Shown here: positions 28,411-39,470 of the stretch, piece by piece
Layout of the letters: each line of letters begins with the position of its first letter
Numbering within the stretch: position 1 is the stretch's first letter
From: a virus
Strand: one strand, 5' to 3'
DNA length: 39,660 nt
IMG/VR virus record: IMGVR_UViG_3300020470_000057
Coordinates: 1-39,660 of that record
Translations under genes and position numbers: made by a program
The notes under the pieces: model-generated
Database searches by the model: none
What the model saw: only the letters and a program-made list of their open reading frames with translations
Told to the model about the DNA's origin: nothing

Positions 28411-29298
28411 CTAATCCTTAACTTCTGGTGTTCTTTTTTGTACATAAGGTGAATTTGATTCAAGATTTTCACTAAATGTAACTCTTCCAGCAGTTAAAGT
28501 TTTTTTAGCATTAAATTGTTGTTTTTTAACAAGGTTTGTAATTACTTCTGGAATTAGATATCCATTCAGTTGAACTGAAAAAGTTGTTCTTACAATTCTA
28601 TCAGTGCCCGCTGAAAGAGAACTTGCGTCTTGTAGTCCTCCTTGTATAGCACATAAAAATCTATAAGAAGTACTATCTCCCCAGTAAGTTTTATTTTGAT
28701 GTAAAAATTCTTCTGTAACAGTATTCATTTGTTCCATAAATGAAGTCCATATTACAAAATCATAGGTAAGATTGACATATTCAGGTGGACCTGTTACTAT
28801 GGATTCCATAACAGGTTTAACTCCTTGCTCAACAGAAAATCTTGTATATTGATTATCTTTAGACCACTTTGAAGACCTCATATGAGTTATATATTCTTTA
28901 TTTAAATCTTGTTTCCAAGAAGGTAGAAGGTCATTAAATTCTAAAGAAGTTCTTCTAAACATAATCATAGGTAATACTAAACTACCATTTTTATCTCTCA
29001 TCACTCCATTCTTTCTAACATTAGCCCATCTTTCCATATTAGCATATACTAAAGGAACTTTAATCATTTCACCATTTTCTTTTACTCTTAATTTCATAAC
29101 TTTATTGATATGATTGACAAGAGATGTATCTAAATCTTTTAATGCTATAGAAAAATTATCACTAAAATTATTACCTGGTACAAATGACTTTTCCCTATTA
29201 CCAACATCATTTCTAATAGTGTCTCCTTTATTAGATACTTGTTCTGCTCTATTAAAATCTAATGGTGGAAATGGATTAGTTATTGGTTTAACAGCCAT
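28411..29298 (-). CDS. gp15: gp15-like tail completion / sheath terminator protein
   Basis: T4 gp15 caps the tail and joins it to the neck. Parallels in order over 295 residues: MIKVPLVYANMERWANVRKN (T4: RVPITYAS), then LPMIMFRRTSLEFND, then YVNLTYDFVIWTSFMEQMNT with EEFL (T4: MIYELSIFTRYEDDMFQIVE), then TTFSVQLNGYLIPE (T4: LTFEVNGWMYPP). The gene also sits in the expected place, after gp13 and gp14 and before gp18. The first 50 residues differ from T4. Its ATG overlaps the stop of the adjacent Cys-rich gene by one base. The call rests on remembered similarity to T4 gp15, so I rate it probable rather than sure. Confidence 0.7.
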   Translation of the reverse strand: MAVKPITNPFPPLDFNRAEQVSNKGDTIRNDVGNREKSFVPGNNFSDNFSIALKDLDTSLVNHINKVMKLRVKENGEMIKVPLVYANMERWANVRKNGVMRDKNGSLVLPMIMFRRTSLEFNDLLPSWKQDLNKEYITHMRSSKWSKDNQYTRFSVEQGVKPVMESIVTGPPEYVNLTYDFVIWTSFMEQMNTVTEEFLHQNKTYWGDSTSYRFLCAIQGGLQDASSLSAGTDRIVRTTFSVQLNGYLIPEVITNLVKKQQFNAKKTLTAGRVTFSENLESNSPYVQKRTPEVKD

Positions 29299-29627
29299 TA
29301 TCTAGTTCTCCCCCTACTGTTATCCGTCAGAGAACAACATCTCTGTACTAAATTCTGGCCAGGATTGTTAAAACCATCTGTATTATATGGATACCTCATA
29401 CCACATGGAACTGTTCCTGGAGGACAAGGTGCTAAAATTTGGTCACCACCTACTGTACCAGGAACTCTCCTCATAGTACCTAATCCAGGCCTTGTACCCA
29501 ATGACCTTGTTGTTCTTCCACCTATAACATGTATATTTTGTCTAGTATTGGTTACAATATTTTTTTTTCTATTGAATTTACTGAGGTCTTTAGCATTTGT
29601 AAAAAATTGTCTTTTACCTTTAGCCAT
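29298..29627 (-). CDS. Cys-rich paralogue 3 (FTNAKDLSKF family)
   Basis: This 109-residue basic protein shares its N-terminus with two genes upstream: QFFTNAKDLSKFNRKKNIVT, then a conserved GGRTTRS. Its C-terminal half has CPPGTVPCGM and a closing CC, again like the paralogues. It is the most divergent copy. The ATG lies inside the end of the 117-residue gene (8-base overlap), and its stop overlaps the gp15 ATG. The layout suggests a small virion protein made in step with neck genes. Function unknown. Confidence 0.65.
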   Translation of the reverse strand: MAKGKRQFFTNAKDLSKFNRKKNIVTNTRQNIHVIGGRTTRSLGTRPGLGTMRRVPGTVGGDQILAPCPPGTVPCGMRYPYNTDGFNNPGQNLVQRCCSLTDNSRGRTR

Positions 29628-29973
29628 TTTTTCTTCTCCTCAAATCCCGTAATTTATCTAATTTATTATTTACTTTTCCTTTTGTAACCTCTGACTTTAC
29701 TGCGTTTTTATCAACTTTTCCAATTGCAATTTCTCTTTTTATATCCACTTCAACAGGTCCGACATTTAAAGTTTTAGATTGATTATTTTCTCCATAAATA
29801 TTTACAGGATTACTACGAATTGAATCAATTTTTTGAGACAACATATTAAATAATCTATTCATATCCAAATTATTATTTGTATTAGTATTAACAACCTGTT
29901 CTTTAACAACTTTCTTTTTTTTGTTGTCTAATGTAAAAAATTTCATTCCTGTTTTTAATGGTTTAACTGACAT
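29620..29973 (-). CDS. Basic Asn/Lys-rich protein, 117 residues, unknown
   Basis: Not part of the Cys-rich family that surrounds it: it has no cysteine. It contains a Lys run with KKKKVVKEQV, an Asn-rich linker (NTNTNNNLDMN), a short helix, a segment of small beta-like repeats (LNVGPVEVDIKREIAIGKVD) and a very basic tail (LRDLRRRKNG). A structural or scaffolding role is possible given its place between gp14 and gp15. It is preceded by GGAGATAATT and separated from the next upstream stop by two bases. Not recognised. Confidence 0.55.
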   Translation of the reverse strand: MSVKPLKTGMKFFTLDNKKKKVVKEQVVNTNTNNNLDMNRLFNMLSQKIDSIRSNPVNIYGENNQSKTLNVGPVEVDIKREIAIGKVDKNAVKSEVTKGKVNNKLDKLRDLRRRKNG

Positions 29974-32581: not shown

Positions 32582-34255
32582 TTAAACTGTTTCTAGTCCA
32601 TGAACTTGAACGATACCATAGAACTCTGGTCTCACCATTTTCTTAGCATAACGAGTCATTACGCCTTTTCTTGGTGTGAAGTTATTTGGATCGTATACAA
32701 GAGGAGTCATAATCAATGGAACATATGGAGCGTAAACCGCACCTGTTTCAAGGAAGTTTGAACCTCTAAATCCTACTAGGATTTGATTTTCTGTCATATA
32801 AGGATTCTTATAAACAGTCCATCTGTTTTTCAATGAACCGATGGCTTGAACACCCATAGCAAAGTTTGCTTGAGTACCATCTGTAGCCGCTGCATATCCA
32901 GGAATAGATTCAAGAATTGTAGCAACATCAGGAGAACATACTAAGAAATTAGCACCACCTCTTAATGTTAACTGATGAATCTTATTGGATACTCTTTGGA
33001 TTTTAGTTCCAAGAGTCTGGAACCATTCACCTTGAGTATATGCAGATGAACCACTAGAAAGTTCGCTAAACGAAGTTTTCTCAGCATTAAGTCCGTGTCC
33101 AACTTTAGCAGACCAATAATCAACAGTTTGAGCATCTGATATTAACATATCAAGTATTTCTAAATCAATTTCCATTGAAATGTATTCAGATAACATTGAT
33201 GTTAATTCAGCTTCTGCATCAACACTATGATAAGCATTAAGGTCTTGAGCTAGTTCTGGAGTCCAGATTGCTTTTAACTTACGAGTTTTAGCAACTATAG
33301 TTTGAGATTTCATCTCAAGGTTAACTTCAGGTATATTCAAGTCAGCATCAACTGATGATGGTGAACCTGGATATTTACCTGCCTCAAAATCACCTCTGTC
33401 AGAAGCAGTTGGTGTTTTGAAGTATTTAATAGTCCAAGCTGAACCAGTACCATGTGAAAGAGCTGTTTTAGCCATTCCCAAAGCACCATTATTAACAACG
33501 ACTTCTAGGTCAGCACCATTAGATGCAACTTGTGTGAATCGTGGAACTACAGAACCAGAAGTGTTACTTGTAATTGTCCAAGCTCTTACAGATTGAACAT
33601 CAGCGTTAGAGCCAGTAGCTCCACCTGATATTGTGAATGTTGCAAGTTTACCTGCATTTGATGCTGAATATTCAGAATCGAAGTCAAGTATTGATAGTGA
33701 AGCGGAATTAATTCCACCAAAACCACCACCTGCAGCACCTGCAGAAGCATGTGAAGTTAATGAAGCAGTCGGCATCGTATATTCGAACTGACCTGCTCCG
33801 TATAAACCATTGTCAGGGTAACTACCTGATGAACCTAACGGAGAATTAGGACCTACTTTTCCTAACATAGATTCTGTACCATCGGTATTTCTTGCTTGTG
33901 CAAAAGAACTACCATATTTAAAATCTAGATAGAAAACAAGACCTGAAGGAAGGTTCATCGGTTGTACACTAACAAACTCTTGTGCTGATATTTCAGCAAA
34001 TATTCTTCTGACCAATGGAAGGGCAACGCCACTCCATTCTTCAGAATCAGCTGTTGTGCTTGTTTGGGAAGCTTCTTGAATAAGCTGTTTAGCTTGGTTT
34101 TCAAGTAGGATAGACATAGAAGATCTTTCATAATCTTTATCTAAACCTTCAAGAAGACCTGTTTTTTCCCATTTAGAAACTAAAGCTTTACTTTCTTCTT
34201 TAAGTTTCTTATTTGGGTTAGCTCCTAACAAAGCATCTTTAATGTAATTTGACAT
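32582..34255 (-). CDS. gp23: Major capsid protein gp23
   Basis: Main shell subunit of the head. After residues SAQEFVSVQPMNLPSGLVFY comes LDFKYGSS, the hallmark of T4 gp23 (FDICGVQPMN, GQVFALRAVYG). ALPLVRRIFAEI precedes it as in T4. The C-terminal half includes LEMKSQTIVAKTRKLKAIWT with PELAQDL, and VYKNPYMTENQILVGFRGSN, also typical. The N-terminal 61 residues form the expected propeptide: LIQE61/A62 fits the prohead protease rule, T4 gp23 being cut after residue 65. The 557 residues include a Ser/Gly-rich insert at about 160-260. GAGGAGAAATTAAA precedes ATG 34255, a strong site suited to high expression. Confidence 0.93.
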   Translation of the reverse strand: MSNYIKDALLGANPNKKLKEESKALVSKWEKTGLLEGLDKDYERSSMSILLENQAKQLIQEASQTSTTADSEEWSGVALPLVRRIFAEISAQEFVSVQPMNLPSGLVFYLDFKYGSSFAQARNTDGTESMLGKVGPNSPLGSSGSYPDNGLYGAGQFEYTMPTASLTSHASAGAAGGGFGGINSASLSILDFDSEYSASNAGKLATFTISGGATGSNADVQSVRAWTITSNTSGSVVPRFTQVASNGADLEVVVNNGALGMAKTALSHGTGSAWTIKYFKTPTASDRGDFEAGKYPGSPSSVDADLNIPEVNLEMKSQTIVAKTRKLKAIWTPELAQDLNAYHSVDAEAELTSMLSEYISMEIDLEILDMLISDAQTVDYWSAKVGHGLNAEKTSFSELSSGSSAYTQGEWFQTLGTKIQRVSNKIHQLTLRGGANFLVCSPDVATILESIPGYAAATDGTQANFAMGVQAIGSLKNRWTVYKNPYMTENQILVGFRGSNFLETGAVYAPYVPLIMTPLVYDPNNFTPRKGVMTRYAKKMVRPEFYGIVQVHGLETV

Positions 34256-34277: not shown

Positions 34278-35417
34278 TTATTTGATTAAGCCGGCCAATT
34301 TCTTAAATCGGTCAGCAACTTTATTTTCTTCCGAAATGATTTTCTTTGGATTACTTGGTTTTGTTGAACCAGTACTCTTAGAAGAACCACCTACGGACTC
34401 TTTTACTATTTTTTTCTTTGAAACATTCGAATTTTCTTGTAATTGTTCAGCAATTGTAGAATAAACAAGTTTGATTTCTCTAACTGTTTGAGCTCTATCA
34501 AAGTTTTCAACAACTTTCAATTTCTGGTCATTATCAAGAATAAATTCTTTAAACAATTTGTTTGTAAACAAAAGTTTAGCATTTAAGATGTTCACTTCGT
34601 GAAGTTTGTCTTTTAAGAAACCAACAGCTTCTTTGTATTGATTTAATTCATCATATACTTCTTTAAACTCTGCCTTCTTAACGCCAGTTCCATCGATATC
34701 TTCTTCATCTTTATTAGAAGCATAATTTACTTTATTATCTCCAGAACCAATACCAGAAGTTTGAGATTGTTCATCTACTTTTTCTTCTTCGTCTGATTCT
34801 TCGTCTTCTTCTTCTGTGAATAAAGATTCGTCTATTTCATATTCTTGTTCACTATCATCTTCATTAACTGGAGAATCTTCTTCTTCTGATTCATCTTCTG
34901 TGATTTCTTCATCACCATTAGACTCTTCTTCTTCAGAAATTTCATCTTCCAATTCTTTAATAACAGCTTCTAAGTCAAGATTAGACTCATCGACTTCTTC
35001 TTCGTCTGATTCTTCTTCGTCTTCTTCTTCAGACACAACAGGTGCGTATTGCACACCATTAATTTCGATAATGCCTTCATCGACATCATCTTCGTCTTCA
35101 TCATCGCCGAAGTCATCATCACCAGCTGGTACCTCTTCATCACCACCTTCTTCGTCTCCGTGTTCGTCATCGCCGAACTCTTCGTCTTCGTAAGTGCCTT
35201 CTTCAGCAGGTACTTCTTCTTCATCATCATCTGCTTCCTCTTCTTCATCTTCTAAAACAGGCTCACCTTCTTCAAGTTCGTCCTCTTTAAGTTTAGCAGA
35301 TAACATTGACTTCAACTGAGGTGTGAACGCTTCTTCTAATGCTATTTTTGCATTTTCTAAAGCTGTCTCACGAACTGCTTTTGCATCCGCGATTGCTTCT
35401 TTTAAAATATCACCCAT
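34278..35417 (-). CDS. gp22: Prohead core scaffold protein gp22
   Basis: Assembly core protein removed by proteolysis as the head matures. Residues 1-45 are helical with several L/I-x-E followed by A or G sites (ILKEA, LEEAF, LEEGE), suited to protease digestion. Residues 48-230 are extremely acidic, long runs of Glu and Asp. The C-terminal 140 residues are helical: ELNQYKEAVGFLKDKLHEVN, then ILNAKLLFTNKLFKEFIL, then KLKVVENFDRAQTVREIKLV, which matches the core of T4-like gp22 proteins. A Lys/Ser-rich tail follows. ATG 35417 is behind GAGGAGAAAAGTATC, and gp23 starts 23 bases after the stop. Confidence 0.85.
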   Translation of the reverse strand: MGDILKEAIADAKAVRETALENAKIALEEAFTPQLKSMLSAKLKEDELEEGEPVLEDEEEEADDDEEEVPAEEGTYEDEEFGDDEHGDEEGGDEEVPAGDDDFGDDEDEDDVDEGIIEINGVQYAPVVSEEEDEEESDEEEVDESNLDLEAVIKELEDEISEEEESNGDEEITEDESEEEDSPVNEDDSEQEYEIDESLFTEEEDEESDEEEKVDEQSQTSGIGSGDNKVNYASNKDEEDIDGTGVKKAEFKEVYDELNQYKEAVGFLKDKLHEVNILNAKLLFTNKLFKEFILDNDQKLKVVENFDRAQTVREIKLVYSTIAEQLQENSNVSKKKIVKESVGGSSKSTGSTKPSNPKKIISEENKVADRFKKLAGLIK

Positions 35418-35565: not shown

Positions 35566-35829
35566 TTAATAACTTTTATTTTCTTTTTGATTTTTATATT
35601 TATTTCTTAATATGGCGAGATTTTTTCTTTCTCTTTTTAATTTAGATGGTTTTTCATAATAAGATTTTCTTTTTACATCTAAAAATAAATTACTTTCTTT
35701 TATTTTTTTCTTCAGTCTTTTTAATGCAAATTCTACATTATTATTAACAACCGTTACTGACAACCCAGGAGGGTCTTGTATTCTTTTTCTTTTTTTATGA
35801 AACCTTTTTTTACCTTTATTATAAGCCAT
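35566..35829 (-). CDS. rpsU: Ribosomal protein bS21 (phage-encoded)
   Basis: Homologue of the small-subunit protein that sits at the mRNA exit/anti-Shine-Dalgarno region of the 30S subunit. From about residue 24 the bS21 pattern is clear: VTVVNNNVEFALKRLKKKIK, then ESNLFLDVKRKSYYEKPSKL, then a basic helix KRERKNLAILRNKYKN. The EKP motif is at 59-61. A basic 22-residue N-terminal extension (KGKKRFHKKRKR) is not usual in bacterial bS21. Its 87 residues exceed the normal 60-75. AGGGGG precedes ATG 35829. It sits 12 bases after the RG-rich protein gene and before the gp22 promoter. It may swap into host ribosomes late in infection and favour phage mRNAs; that is inference. Confidence 0.85.
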   Translation of the reverse strand: MAYNKGKKRFHKKRKRIQDPPGLSVTVVNNNVEFALKRLKKKIKESNLFLDVKRKSYYEKPSKLKRERKNLAILRNKYKNQKENKSY

Positions 35830-35840
35830 TCAGCCCCCTA

Positions 35841-37712
35841 CTAATTTTTAGTTAATTCTTCTTTATGTTTTAGATATTCTTTTGCTAAATATCTTTCTCT
35901 TCCGTATGCCGCTTTTGACCATTTTTTAACAATTGACTTTGGCATTTGTTCATAGTCTTCAGCTAAATTATTATTTACAAACCAAGCTACTCTTCGAGCA
36001 TCAGCATGTGGTATTTTTTTGTATCTATTCTCTTCAAGAGTTTTCATCCAAACTTTAATTTCTTTTACAGTTGACCTTCTTGGTTTTACTGTTTCACTTA
36101 TGATATTGTTTCTTATCATAAGTGATTCATCTTTTTTACTTTTTTTACCTTTTTTACCTTTAGAACCTTTAGCTCTCCCCCTTCCTTTACCTCTTCCTTT
36201 TCCTTTAGCACCTCTACCTCTTCCTCTACCTCTTCCTTTACCAGAAGATTTACCTGAACCCCATCCACCTTTAGCAGATGCAGTTCCTCCTTTTGCAACA
36301 GTTTTAGGTACATCAATAGTTGCCCTTTTACCAAACGATTCTTCGTCTTTTTCTCTAGACTTTTGAAGGTCTATATCTTTAGCTGTAACCGTATCAGCAT
36401 CTTGTGTTACTTTTGATAGAGCTGAAGATTCAGCAGATTGTGCTGATGTATGTTTATCAGTATACTCTGCTTTTTTATCACTCCAATCAGACCATTCAGG
36501 ATTATCTATATTAGGATTAGTTGTATCTCCAGTCGACCATTGGTCTCTTCCTGGTTGACCTTGAGCAGTTGATAAATCTGAAGCACTACCATAACCATAA
36601 TTAGTTGCATAACTTGTCTGTTGTGTAGTTGGATTTGTAGTTGCTTTTGCTGATGTAAATTGGTCTCTACCAGATACAGTTTGAGCGGTTGAGTAATCCG
36701 AATCAGTTCCTTGTCCATATTGAGTTGCATATGAAGTTGATGTTGGATTAGTTGTTTTTTTGGGGTCTGCTAATGAACCAACTTTTGTTTTTCTATCTGG
36801 ACTTACACCACCACCTTTTTTTATTAAATCTGAAAGTTCTTGGTAACCACCCAAACCTACTATTGTTCCTTGACCAAATGTTTTTACAGCTTTACCATAA
36901 TTTACAGTAGTAGGTGCAGATTTAGATATTTGTTGACCGGGTTGTAATGTTTTTTGAGCTTTAGCATAATCTTGTGCAGAACCAACACCATATTTAGTTT
37001 TTCCTCCTTTTCCACCAGTAACAACTGACCACCCCAAAGCAGGTATCGCTGCTTTAGGACTTGGGAGATTAACTGTTTGCTTCGAAGTTGGATGTGTCCA
37101 AGATTGAGCAGTTTGTGTTCCATATTCCCAACCAAATTTTGGTTGAGTTTGACCTTTACTTAATGTTGTTGTTTGAGATGAATAAGGGTGAATCCATTTT
37201 GATGAATCAGTTGTAGTTGTAGCCTGTCTATATTGCCAACCTTTAGCAGGTTGAGTTTCACCTTGACCTAATGTTGTTGTTTGAGATGAATATGGGTGAA
37301 TCCATTTTGTTGTATCAGGAACATCTTGTGTTGTCGCCTGTCTATACGACCAAGCTTTATCAGGTTGAGTTTCACCTTGACCTAATGTTACTACATCACC
37401 AGTAATTGGATTTTTCCATCTCGTTGTATCAGGTATTTCAGATGCAGGTTCATCAGCTGTATGTCTATCAAGGGTATCTTTAGCAGTTTTTGTATCTTTT
37501 TGAGCAACTTCCCATCCTGATAAAGATTGTTGATGTTTAGTTTTTGCAATATGTAAAGCGTGTTCCGCATCTGTTGTTGCTCTACTTGCAGGAGGTTTAC
37601 CCTTTGGATTCTTTTTAGCAACTCTCGTAACTGCGCTAGTTCCGGTAGCTTCTATTAAAAATTTTCTTATTACTTTTCTTAAGGTAGACTCTTTTATAAA
37701 CATCCTTTTCAT
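35841..37712 (-). CDS. Repetitive RG/K-rich protein with prohead-protease-like leader; candidate internal head protein
   Basis: The start is ATG 37712 behind GGAGATGAGAAT; an upstream ATG at 37796 overlaps the previous gene. Of 623 residues, 1-21 form a basic leader ending FLIE21/A22, a match to the T4 capsid-targeting and protease-cut rule. Residues 99-230 hold four repeats of 36-38 residues of the form W-x-HP then about 11 residues, TLGQGETQP and GWQYRQAT. Residues 328-391 hold two 40-residue repeats (YATQYGQGTDSDYSTAQ, GRDQ). Residues 490-527 are an RG/KG tract that should bind nucleic acid or host targets. A second possible cut is IISE540/T541, before a folded C-terminal domain (residues 545-620, helical, basic). 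It resembles a DNA-binding protein packed in the head and ejected with DNA; unproven. Confidence 0.6.
   Translation of the reverse strand: MKRMFIKESTLRKVIRKFLIEATGTSAVTRVAKKNPKGKPPASRATTDAEHALHIAKTKHQQSLSGWEVAQKDTKTAKDTLDRHTADEPASEIPDTTRWKNPITGDVVTLGQGETQPDKAWSYRQATTQDVPDTTKWIHPYSSQTTTLGQGETQPAKGWQYRQATTTTDSSKWIHPYSSQTTTLSKGQTQPKFGWEYGTQTAQSWTHPTSKQTVNLPSPKAAIPALGWSVVTGGKGGKTKYGVGSAQDYAKAQKTLQPGQQISKSAPTTVNYGKAVKTFGQGTIVGLGGYQELSDLIKKGGGVSPDRKTKVGSLADPKKTTNPTSTSYATQYGQGTDSDYSTAQTVSGRDQFTSAKATTNPTTQQTSYATNYGYGSASDLSTAQGQPGRDQWSTGDTTNPNIDNPEWSDWSDKKAEYTDKHTSAQSAESSALSKVTQDADTVTAKDIDLQKSREKDEESFGKRATIDVPKTVAKGGTASAKGGWGSGKSSGKGRGRGRGRGAKGKGRGKGRGRAKGSKGKKGKKSKKDESLMIRNNIISETVKPRRSTVKEIKVWMKTLEENRYKKIPHADARRVAWFVNNNLAEDYEQMPKSIVKKWSKAAYGRERYLAKEYLKHKEELTKN
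36132..36245 (-). repeat. RG/KG low-complexity coding tract
   Basis: This stretch codes residues 490-527 of the RG-rich protein and consists of alternating Gly with Arg or Lys, in DNA a near-repeat of GGAAGAGG and GGTAAAGG type. Slippage could change its length between relatives. Confidence 0.75.
36540..36731 (-). repeat. Two 40-residue coding repeats (YATQYGQG, then AQ and GRDQ)
   Basis: Residues 328-351 and 368-391 of the RG-rich protein share YAT-x-YG-x-G, D, STAQ and GRDQ at the same spacing. A weaker relative (YGVGSAQDYAKAQ) occurs near residue 241. Confidence 0.7.
37023..37418 (-). repeat. Tandem coding repeats, about 108-114 bases each
   Basis: Four units start at Trp residues 99, 137, 173 and 205 of the RG-rich protein. 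The first to second period is 114 bases and the second to third 108. Units two and three share WIHPYSSQTTTL exactly; the fourth is the most diverged. Confidence 0.75.
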
Positions 37713-37731: not shown

Positions 37732-38151
37732 TTATATAAATTTATTAAAAGAACTGATAGGTTTAAACTGATTTGTATCATTTTTAAAATTATCAATTTC
37801 TTTATCGGTCATTTTAACTACATCGTCATACACAATTTCGGTATCACGATAAGCTTCTCCATGTGGAGTTATTGCATCTTTAATTTTCTTTTCATATTCT
37901 TCTATAGCTTTATACAATAAATCCATTTTTGGTGTTATTTTTTTGTTGTGTGTAGTTATTTCTTCTCTCCAATCTAATTGGTATTGTAATAACTTTTTCA
38001 AATCTCCAAATTCAGGATGAAAAGGACCTGAAAATAACATATCAATTCCTTGACCCTTTGCACCAGAGTGTCCTTCAACACCACCAGAATCTTGTTCCAA
38101 TAAATTTACTAATTCTTCTAGTAAATTACTCTTCACTTGACTCTTCTTCAT
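37732..38151 (-). CDS. Small protein overlapping the actin-like gene, 139 residues
   Basis: ATG 38151 lies 26 bases inside the end of the actin-like gene and is preceded by GAGG, so the two are translationally coupled. The N-terminus is amphipathic (SNLLEELVNLLEQ) followed by a Gly-rich stretch (SGGVEGHSGAKGQG). The rest has helices (KKLLQYQLDWREEITTHNKK, YKAIEEYEKKIKDA) and an acidic middle. Gene overlap with an actin-like ATPase resembles plasmid and phage segregation pairs, where the second gene is a DNA-binding adaptor. No DNA-binding fold is recognisable, so adaptor is only one idea. It could also belong to the head. Confidence 0.6.
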   Translation of the reverse strand: MKKSQVKSNLLEELVNLLEQDSGGVEGHSGAKGQGIDMLFSGPFHPEFGDLKKLLQYQLDWREEITTHNKKITPKMDLLYKAIEEYEKKIKDAITPHGEAYRDTEIVYDDVVKMTDKEIDNFKNDTNQFKPISSFNKFI

Positions 38152-39160
38152 CTTCCTCTATGAGTTGTGCTTCACTTAAACAACCTCTTGCGACTGCTGT
38201 GTGAGCATCTTCAATTAATTTTATTTCACTAACTGGTATTGGGAAATTTTCTCCATCAAATTGTTCTTGGAATACATCCATAAATCCTGTAACTAATGAT
38301 GTTCCACCACCAATTACAATTGGAACTGCATCTGGAAAACTCGGCATATTATCTTTAGCTTCAAATTGAACTTTGAGGTTTGTTAAAAGATAATTAACCA
38401 ATGCACCATAGTAAGAACGAATAGCATGTAATACATTTGCCTCGTCACTACCTTCACCATAAATATCAGCTTCAACACCCTTACTTAAATTTAAGTTGTT
38501 TGAAGATTCTTTTGCATTTTGAACTTTAGCCGGTGACAATCCAGTATCAGCAGCTACATTTTGGTCAATCCAATCACCACCTCTTGATACTGAAAATGAT
38601 AATGCAGTCATACCTTGATACATTACTGCTATATTACACATACCAGCTCCCATAGAAATTGCTATACCAGTTAAGTCATTATCAACTAAACCTTCATATC
38701 CAATAGCAACTGCCTCTTCAATTACTTTAGTTTTATATCCATATCCATCTATAATAGTTTTTAACACATCTTCGTGATAAGAAACTTCTCTTTGTTGGTC
38801 AATAGGTTTTGAAGGTACACAATAAACACACACCTCTTTACCTTTAGCCTTACCTAACAATTCACCAACAATTGCATTTAATACAGGTAGTGCATCTTTT
38901 TCTTCTGGATTTAATAATCCACTTTTCATTGGTCTTTTTAATTCTGTTTGAGAAAATATCTGTGCGTAATTAAAAGCGTGTTGTCCAACGATATGAACTT
39001 TTCCACCCTTTTCCACGAATGGTATCTTCTGTCTTTTTAACATTCGTTTAACTTGATTTACATCACCATCTACTGTTAAGAAAGCATTTCTTTGTTTTTT
39101 AATACTATCTTCTGTAGCTGTGATATAAAAACTTGTTCCACAATCTAATCCTTTTGCCAT
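38126..39160 (-). CDS. Actin-like ATPase (ASKHA fold; MreB/ParM/Alp type)
   Basis: A filament-forming or chaperone-like ATPase is predicted. The ASKHA motifs are in order: phosphate-1 GLDCGTSFYITA (residues 4-15), connect-1 region VIEEAVAIGYEG (146-157), phosphate-2 IAISMGAGMCNIAVMYQG (166-183), the MreB/Hsp70-like RGGDWIDQNVA (193-203), adenosine motif IVIGGGTSLVTGF (281-293) and the closing AHTAVARGC (319-327). At 344 residues it is the size of MreB or ParM, not of Hsp70. The last 12 residues are strongly acidic. The start at 39160 is behind AGAGGTAAATT. Its neighbours are candidate internal head proteins, and T4 has no such gene. Polymerisation cannot be judged from sequence. Confidence 0.8.
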   Translation of the reverse strand: MAKGLDCGTSFYITATEDSIKKQRNAFLTVDGDVNQVKRMLKRQKIPFVEKGGKVHIVGQHAFNYAQIFSQTELKRPMKSGLLNPEEKDALPVLNAIVGELLGKAKGKEVCVYCVPSKPIDQQREVSYHEDVLKTIIDGYGYKTKVIEEAVAIGYEGLVDNDLTGIAISMGAGMCNIAVMYQGMTALSFSVSRGGDWIDQNVAADTGLSPAKVQNAKESSNNLNLSKGVEADIYGEGSDEANVLHAIRSYYGALVNYLLTNLKVQFEAKDNMPSFPDAVPIVIGGGTSLVTGFMDVFQEQFDGENFPIPVSEIKLIEDAHTAVARGCLSEAQLIEEDEEESSEE

Positions 39161-39170
39161 AATTTACCTC

Positions 39171-39470
39171 TTATTTTCTTTTTGTTATAACCGCTTTTTT
39201 TAATACTTTTAATAATTGTTTTTTTGATGATTTAGAAGAACCACTTGGTTTCATACCTTGTTCTTCATCTCTTATATCATCCAACAGACCATCAATTTCA
39301 CCATAATATTTTTTATCCAAATTGAGTCCATTAATTAAATCTTCTAAATCACCATACGCATCATATTTCATAGTGTCCGATATAGTTTTCATAAGTTTTG
39401 GACTAGCGCCTTCATTTAACAAATATCCACCACCAATCCTTTTTAAAGTTTCTTTTAATGTTTCTTTCAT
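39171..39470 (-). CDS. Small protein with candidate capsid-targeting leader, 99 residues
   Basis: The product starts MKETLKETLKRIGGGYLLNE and continues GASPKL. The leader ending LLNE20/G21 is basic and amphipathic and matches the T4 internal-protein pattern (about 10-20 residues, then Leu/Ile-x-Glu cut before Ala/Gly). The middle is acidic (GDLEDLINGLNLDKKYYGEI, DGLLDDIRDEEQG), and the C-terminus is Ser/Lys-rich and basic (KKQLLKVLKKAVITKRK). It lies 11 bases upstream of the actin-like gene with AGAGG before ATG 39470. Internal head protein, scaffold helper or a partner of the actin-like protein are the options. Confidence 0.6.
   Translation of the reverse strand: MKETLKETLKRIGGGYLLNEGASPKLMKTISDTMKYDAYGDLEDLINGLNLDKKYYGEIDGLLDDIRDEEQGMKPSGSSKSSKKQLLKVLKKAVITKRK

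Follow-up and report, generated by a model that had tools for sequence, protein, structure and literature searches.

Background

What does an actin do for a phage when its gene lies among those that build the head? The question is raised by the window, that is the whole stretch of DNA analysed here, a 39.7-kb virus record in which two reading frames of the minus strand overlap by 26 nt. A preliminary description, made from the sequence alone, had noticed both frames; it read the longer one as an actin-like ATPase of the filament-forming branch and the shorter one as its partner or filament adaptor, and proposed a role in head assembly, genome positioning or takeover of the host cytoskeleton.

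38126..39160, minus strand: viral volactin (actin-like ATPase), 344 aa
37732..38151, minus strand: overlapping gene, 139 aa, inserted in the variable slot that follows the actin

To our knowledge, the cytoskeletons known from phages are the tubulins of nucleus-forming phages and the actins of a few prophages and plasmids. PhuZ forms a filament by which capsids are carried away from the membrane (PMC7950403, accessible portion), and AlpC, encoded by prophage CGP3, is a phage actin that is induced early and works with a DNA-binding adaptor (PMC4446434, accessible portion).

Identification of the actin

The long frame is under purifying selection (dN about 0.14-0.18 versus dS about 0.68-1.23 between the window and five relatives) and is therefore a gene and not a chance frame. 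Its product matches the Pfam family Volactin (PF25216) with an E-value of 1.8e-73 and 248.2 bits (cut-off 35), residues 1-331 being aligned with the complete model (1-321 of 321). The match to MreB_Mbl of Pfam is far weaker (7.9e-7, 28.7 bits, barely above the cut-off of 27) and partial, covering residues 53-202. The MreB models of NCBIfam score it at 15.6-24.3 bits, short of their cut-offs of 293-515, and the MamK model at 28 bits with a cut-off of 400; matches to FtsA are weak in both Pfam and NCBIfam, and PHROGs holds no family for the protein. A PDB search with a profile built from 67 viral relatives retrieved MamK (1.9e-10, in an entry titled 'Actin-like ATPase') and MreB (1.5e-6), and no kinase or Hsp70 below 0.01.

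Structure prediction and comparison, the check proposed at the outset, returned an actin fold. The AlphaFold2 model has a mean pLDDT of 90.5, Foldseek places MreB, Mbl, MamK and BeeR at the top, and VIA-align gives Z-scores of 27.6 for the MamK filament, 27.0 for BeeR, 26.4 for MreB (290 residues superposed at 3.3 A) and about 25-26 for F-actin. The viral fold library gave distant matches only, namely a phage G protein, a closterovirus HSP70h and a hokovirus actin-related protein. Among the Pfam, NCBIfam and PDB matches listed there was no sign of the best match that would have spoken for another kind of protein, i.e. a sugar kinase, Ppx/GppA or Hsp70: Pfam returned no family of FGGY kinases, Ppx/GppA or Hsp70 at E up to 1, and none stood among the PDB fold matches listed.

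It is near certain that the 344-aa product is a viral volactin, an actin-fold ATP-binding protein, and its placement in the filament-forming branch holds, both by family and by the folds closest to it. Judged by its full-length Pfam match, the window actin falls into the same family, PF25216, as HVO_2015 of Haloferax volcanii, a volactin that forms filaments; among 14 control genomes, that of H. volcanii alone passed the Volactin cut-off. In cells this archaeal shape protein forms dynamic filaments whose tips bind the membrane, according to the accessible portion of PMC10869688, and the viral volactin most likely polymerises too. Identity between the phage protein and the archaeal volactins fetched is about 34-39%, and the phage gene belongs to a head cluster, whereas the H. 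volcanii protein is cellular. MamK, the best solved sequence match, and MreB have the actin fold in common with the window actin, but are only 16-18% identical to it.

Genomic context of the actin gene

The uncultured T4-like phages that carry an actin like that of the window are called clade A in the following. Counts for this clade refer to loci L002-L081 plus the window, near relatives included (18 rows lie below 88% identity, two of them huge-phage records); before counting, copies (L001, L084-L089) and longer copies, mostly of the same contigs (L090-L138), were dropped. The gene order in clade A is portal, protease, variable genes, actin, slot, bS21, inferred scaffold, gp23, and the window holds the following part of it:

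32582..34255, minus strand: major capsid protein gp23 (Pfam Gp23, 8.8e-80; PHROG 138, 1e-74)
34278..35417, minus strand: acidic protein, inferred scaffold (gp22-like)
35566..35829, minus strand: bS21-like ribosomal protein (Pfam Ribosomal_S21, 7e-12; PHROG 21469)
35841..37712, minus strand: 623-aa repetitive protein ending in a TVKE domain
35847..36080, minus strand: TVKE domain (TVKEI..WMKTLEENRYKK)
39171..39470, minus strand: 99-aa gene upstream of the actin, with no Pfam or PHROG family

The acidic protein matches nothing in Pfam or PHROGs; its naming as scaffold follows from its position directly before gp23, where relatives have a similar protein. The T4 portal was found in 3/5 and the T4 head protease in 4/5 clade A records, and by these genes and its own gp23 the lineage of the window is classed with the T4-like (gp23) phages. 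The actin thus sits in a gp23-type cluster between protease and scaffold/gp23, a setting unlike that of a plasmid partition operon, as had been seen in the first place. It is also better conserved than the capsid protein in all 78 pairs formed by 13 clade A phages (mean identity 77% vs 63%). The late promoter motif TATAAATA gave 11 matches against 8.4 expected, none of them upstream of the actin.

Several observations concern the neighbouring genes. Most clade A loci have retained the phage bS21 gene at its place after the actin slot and before the scaffold, and Microcystis phage Mel-JY01 also has one close to its protease. Between protease and scaffold, many N-termini of clade A proteins share a leader of the type M-K-L-T-K-x-x-L-K-E-L-I-R, often followed by L-x-E; these are possibly capsid-targeting leaders. 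LIE/A at the end of the N-terminus of the 623-aa protein could be what we take to be a T4-type cleavage site, and LNE/G, presumably a motif of the same kind, ends a possible leader of the 99-aa protein.

The 623-aa protein belongs to no Pfam, PHROG or NCBIfam family; its C-terminus matches our TVKE model at 1.9e-40, the window being in the seed of that model. Found in 74/81 clade A records, the TVKE domain was considered as the true partner of the actin and rejected: it is not actin-specific, since it is also present in loci without actin (L399, L400, L404, L412 and L442-L444; more weakly in L449-L452, L515, L522 and L526). The domain is mobile, being attached to one or another gene of the head cluster, and long variable regions are often fused to it.

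Conserved companions of the actin

The conserved companion of the actin is a single-pass transmembrane (TM) protein, about 100 aa long and with a conserved C-terminal tail. Its gene lies upstream of the actin in 72/80 loci; in the remaining eight the upstream sequence is shorter than 1.2 kb. The distance between the two matches ranges from 5-8 nt in the main subclade up to 3.4 kb. Conversely, starting from 75 of the 80 loci with a TM-tail gene, 74 full TM loci were obtained, and actin lies near by in 71 of them, the other three being too short to tell. The two genes stand in reversed order in L372-L375. The window itself ends short of the place where the TM-tail gene is expected, which is further upstream than the 99-aa gene. 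A second protein with the same tail is present in the neck region of the window:

29620..29973, minus strand: 117-aa neck-region protein, no TM stretch
29635..29796, minus strand: shared C-terminal tail module (residues 60-113), aligned with the tail of the TM protein
28411-29298: gp15-like (T4) neighbour of the neck-region protein (Pfam, 1.8e-7)

The tail of this protein matches that of the relatives' TM protein with a profile E-value of 1.4e-9 among all reading frames. Of 57 long loci, which were not deduplicated, 48 have the neck-tail protein; in the other nine it was not found.

These genes were followed into a sister lineage. Phage L444 has, in this order, a portal-sized frame and a protease-like frame (both named by position and look), TVKE, a scaffold-like frame and gp23, and no actin. 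Searching with the gp23 of L444 yielded 80 loci; in the pooled comparison there were 82 loci with gp23, of which 48 hold at least 6 kb upstream, and neither actin nor the TM-tail protein occurs in any of these 48. The best neck-tail matches in this lineage had E-values of 4.5 with the neck model and 1.3 with the tail alone. A single branch (support 99) of a 121-row gp23 tree separates the actin-bearing phages from 62 actin-less ones; 11 rows within the actin clade are labelled 'none' there because only frames of at least 300 aa were counted, and of these L388, L410, L413 and L439 are not among the actin-less loci, and the other seven begin no more than about 0.8 kb from the TVKE domain. In the cultured phages closest by gp23 (52-54%), Microcystis phage Mel-JY01 and Flavobacterium phages immuto, there is likewise no actin between protease and gp23. 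Since the joint presence and absence of actin, TM-tail and neck-tail amounts to one evolutionary event, the link between the three is suggestive only, and their co-occurrence could be plain linkage.

A proposed filament for phage heads

An actin among the capsid genes and, beside it, a small membrane protein whose tail recurs in the neck region suggest, without proving it, that these phages handle their heads at the cell membrane by means of a filament. T4-type proheads start at the membrane. From family, fold, setting and association, we infer polymerisation, tail binding and transport, in the following way: the shared tail would be a peptide that docks onto the actin or onto an actin binder; the TM protein would hold the volactin filament to the inner membrane; the neck protein with the same tail would connect the filament to the head-neck complex; and the filament would serve to anchor, place or transport proheads between membrane and packaging sites. 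Such a system would be an actin counterpart of capsid transport by PhuZ, whose spindle in nucleus-forming jumbo phages is a possible functional likeness, with the difference that PhuZ is a tubulin.

That a volactin filament with a membrane anchor serves head assembly or positioning in T4-like phages is the reading we prefer, tentatively and at somewhat less than an even chance. More doubtful is the scheme in full, in which, in the T4-like lineage, the TM adaptor would fasten volactin filaments to the inner membrane, the neck protein with its docking tail would join them to the head-neck complex, and the filaments would carry or hold proheads during assembly and packaging, and in which two further clades of huge phages would use volactins of their own, one of them (clade C, below) with its own small upstream adaptor. 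Of the roles first proposed, the part that rested on the head-cluster setting stands, and the part that made the overlapping gene the adaptor does not. If the preferred reading is true, a filament is needed for building heads in a common type of phage, the actin being strictly kept in the capsid cluster; travel of phage heads on actin becomes a directly testable question that involves three small genes.

The tails also allow another explanation, the main rival though rather unlikely, for which T4 gp40, a membrane chaperone, provides a model: the TM-tail and neck-tail proteins would alternate on the portal or connector, with membrane docking first and the neck completed after packaging, and the actin would be a linked gene with another job. 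Tails on a membrane protein and on a neck-region protein do fit one shared connector site, and a single gain or loss is all that ties the tail genes to the actin. However, the TM match comes within a few nucleotides of the actin match in the main subclade, actin is present at every resolvable TM locus, and the actin-less sister lineage also builds gp23 heads, without such tails.

The nucleotide-binding site

39134..39151, minus strand: phosphate-1 motif GLDCGT (residues 4-9)
38633..38656, minus strand: phosphate-2 motif S-M-G-A-G-M-C-N (residues 169-176), with Ser in place of Asp

All five ASKHA motifs had been thought visible in the window actin. Phosphate-1 (GLDCGT), the connect-1 Glu, the adenosine motif GGGTS and the closing A-V-A-R-G are indeed kept, and phosphate-2 is there without its Asp. 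Both loops were located in a family alignment of 271 volactin members, 192 viral and 79 cellular. Among the sequences with a letter at that position, the phosphate-1 Asp is present in 80/80 of clade A, 30/30 of clade B and 80/80 of clade C, the latter two being the huge-phage clades described below, and in 79/79 cellular ones; the connect-1 Glu and the glycines of the adenosine motif are likewise retained. The phosphate-2 loop reads S-x-G-x-G-M/L-x-N in 271/271 aligned members, with S and N invariant; this signature was derived in the present analysis and is not a published criterion. Opposite the window loop MamK has D-I-G-A-G-T-T-D, and both MamK and MreB begin phosphate-2 with Asp and end it with an acidic residue, where the volactin family has Ser and Asn.

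By its sequence, the altered phosphate-2 site could make hydrolysis slow or absent, which bears on the possibility that the protein is a non-polymerising actin-fold ATPase acting as a head assembly chaperone, nearer to Hsp70 or FtsA in its action. The replacement of both acidic residues throughout the family and the weak FtsA matches speak for this idea. It is nevertheless unlikely, because the top structural matches are filament formers and because the altered loop need not block polymerisation, given the dynamic filaments known from the H. volcanii member of this Pfam family (PMC10869688, accessible portion); in our alignment the haloarchaea are represented by a Natronomonas member and not by the H. 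volcanii sequence itself.

Host and host cytoskeleton

The clue to the host is one phage contig found in a Pelagibacter MAG; no tRNAs offered a further one. The assignment to SAR11 is weak because its basis is this one MAG contig. In the SAR11 host family MreB is present in 71/79 genomes and volactin in 1/79, that one being the phage contig, so if SAR11 is the host, the phage would bring an actin type that is missing from the host family.

Takeover genes are usually early and variable. The actin would be such a gene if it interfered with the host MreB cytoskeleton or replaced it during infection, as the actin fold and, with a SAR11 host, the occurrence of MreB and volactin just given would allow; but it lies in the head cluster and is better conserved than the capsid protein, and we regard a takeover of this kind as quite improbable.

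The overlapping gene and DNA segregation

The adaptor role of the 139-aa gene was to be judged by the occurrence of the gene pair in relatives. The gene is absent from 78/80 clade A loci, some of which are short, and in the other two (L071 and L034; 33-41% identity) it lies 2-3 kb upstream of the actin, not adjacent to it. A single-sequence scan of viral contigs, which reaches close relatives only, gave no match. Nothing scored above cut-off in Pfam and NCBIfam, no DNA-binding family was matched there or in PHROGs, and the AlphaFold prediction (pLDDT 49.9, alignment of 3 sequences) is uninformative. Different phages have different genes in the slot after the actin, and the downstream frame begins within the actin gene in 71/80 loci; since most relatives overlap in this way but with different genes, the overlap is ordinary packing of a variable slot. 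The 139-aa gene was therefore rejected as a filament adaptor, its lack in relatives being the outcome that the preliminary description had named as refuting the pair, and it is not part of the proposed head-handling system.

This result weighs against the reading from which the supposed pair came, namely that an actin and its adaptor segregate or position the phage DNA, as in AlpC-AlpA or ParM-ParR. The overlapping gene order suits it, and AlpC-AlpA, likewise with a phage-encoded actin, is a real phage precedent (PMC4446434, accessible portion). However, AlpC has its DNA-binding adaptor, and at the window-type locus, where the actin gene stands among structural genes, no adjacent conserved DNA-binding adaptor as in ParM or AlpC systems was found; DNA segregation is very unlikely. 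Least probable of all is that the actin is an internal head protein, packaged and delivered with the genome: its neighbours have possible leader peptides for the head protease, but the actin begins directly at the phosphate-1 strand, with no leader to be removed.

Distribution and phylogeny of volactins

Actins of the window type occur in at least 123 IMG/VR stretches when searched by single-sequence patterns and in 213 by profile. The viral volactins found fall into three clades: A, with 213 stretches from T4-like phages such as that of the window; B, with 30 from huge phages resembling LR745208; and C, with 108 from huge phages resembling LR756511. Among 50,697 annotated phage records two match the actin, both of uncultured huge phages; no T4 record is among the matches, in line with the earlier remark that T4 has no actin. 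Among 84,980 species genomes, 299 relatives were detected; the 80 that scored best are the phage contig in the Pelagibacter MAG, followed by Planctomycetota, euryarchaea and one Altiarchaeales. The Planctomycetota proteins are 36-42% identical to the window actin over the whole length and have the same phosphate-2 signature; their genes differ in being chromosomal, with other neighbours. A family known from archaeal cell shape would thereby be extended to viruses and Planctomycetota. At title and abstract level, the literature on phage actins, huge phages, pelagiphages and Planctomycetes yielded no report of a phage volactin, and the accessible portion of the H. volcanii paper (PMC10869688) mentions neither 'phage' nor 'virus'.

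In a tree of 82 volactin members, clades A (100), B (97) and C (100) and the Planctomycetota (95) each form one group. Clade C is on a long branch, and the tree does not decide between Planctomycetota and clade B as the neighbour of clade A.

In clade C the actin is on the strand of gp23, 23-46 kb upstream of it, in 8/8 records, and the head protease (8/8) and the portal (6/8) lie between the two. Directly upstream of the actin is a gene for a protein of about 75 aa (e.g. L174:7750-7998) with a C-terminal peptide W-x-I-P-D/E-F...K-x-F-G-K in most of 30 representatives; it matches no database family, and the tail module of clade A gave no more than a chance-level match in clade C.

In clade B gp23 was found in 0/7 records searched, and the neighbours of the actin differ. 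A DNA-binding partner was considered for this clade and rejected: the gene upstream of the actin in L153 matches a DNA-binding PHROG, but it looks Dps-like by eye and other genes replace it in other members, so there is no AlpA-like rule.

One clade B volactin (L167:8004-10088) is interrupted by an intein inside the conserved R-G-G-D-W stretch (Intein_splicing 1.3e-7, just under the cut-off; LAGLIDADG_3), and in L163 and L168 the matches end in the same region. Volactin-type actins are widespread in Planctomycetota (L250-L307), some of the frames apparently having long N-terminal extensions.
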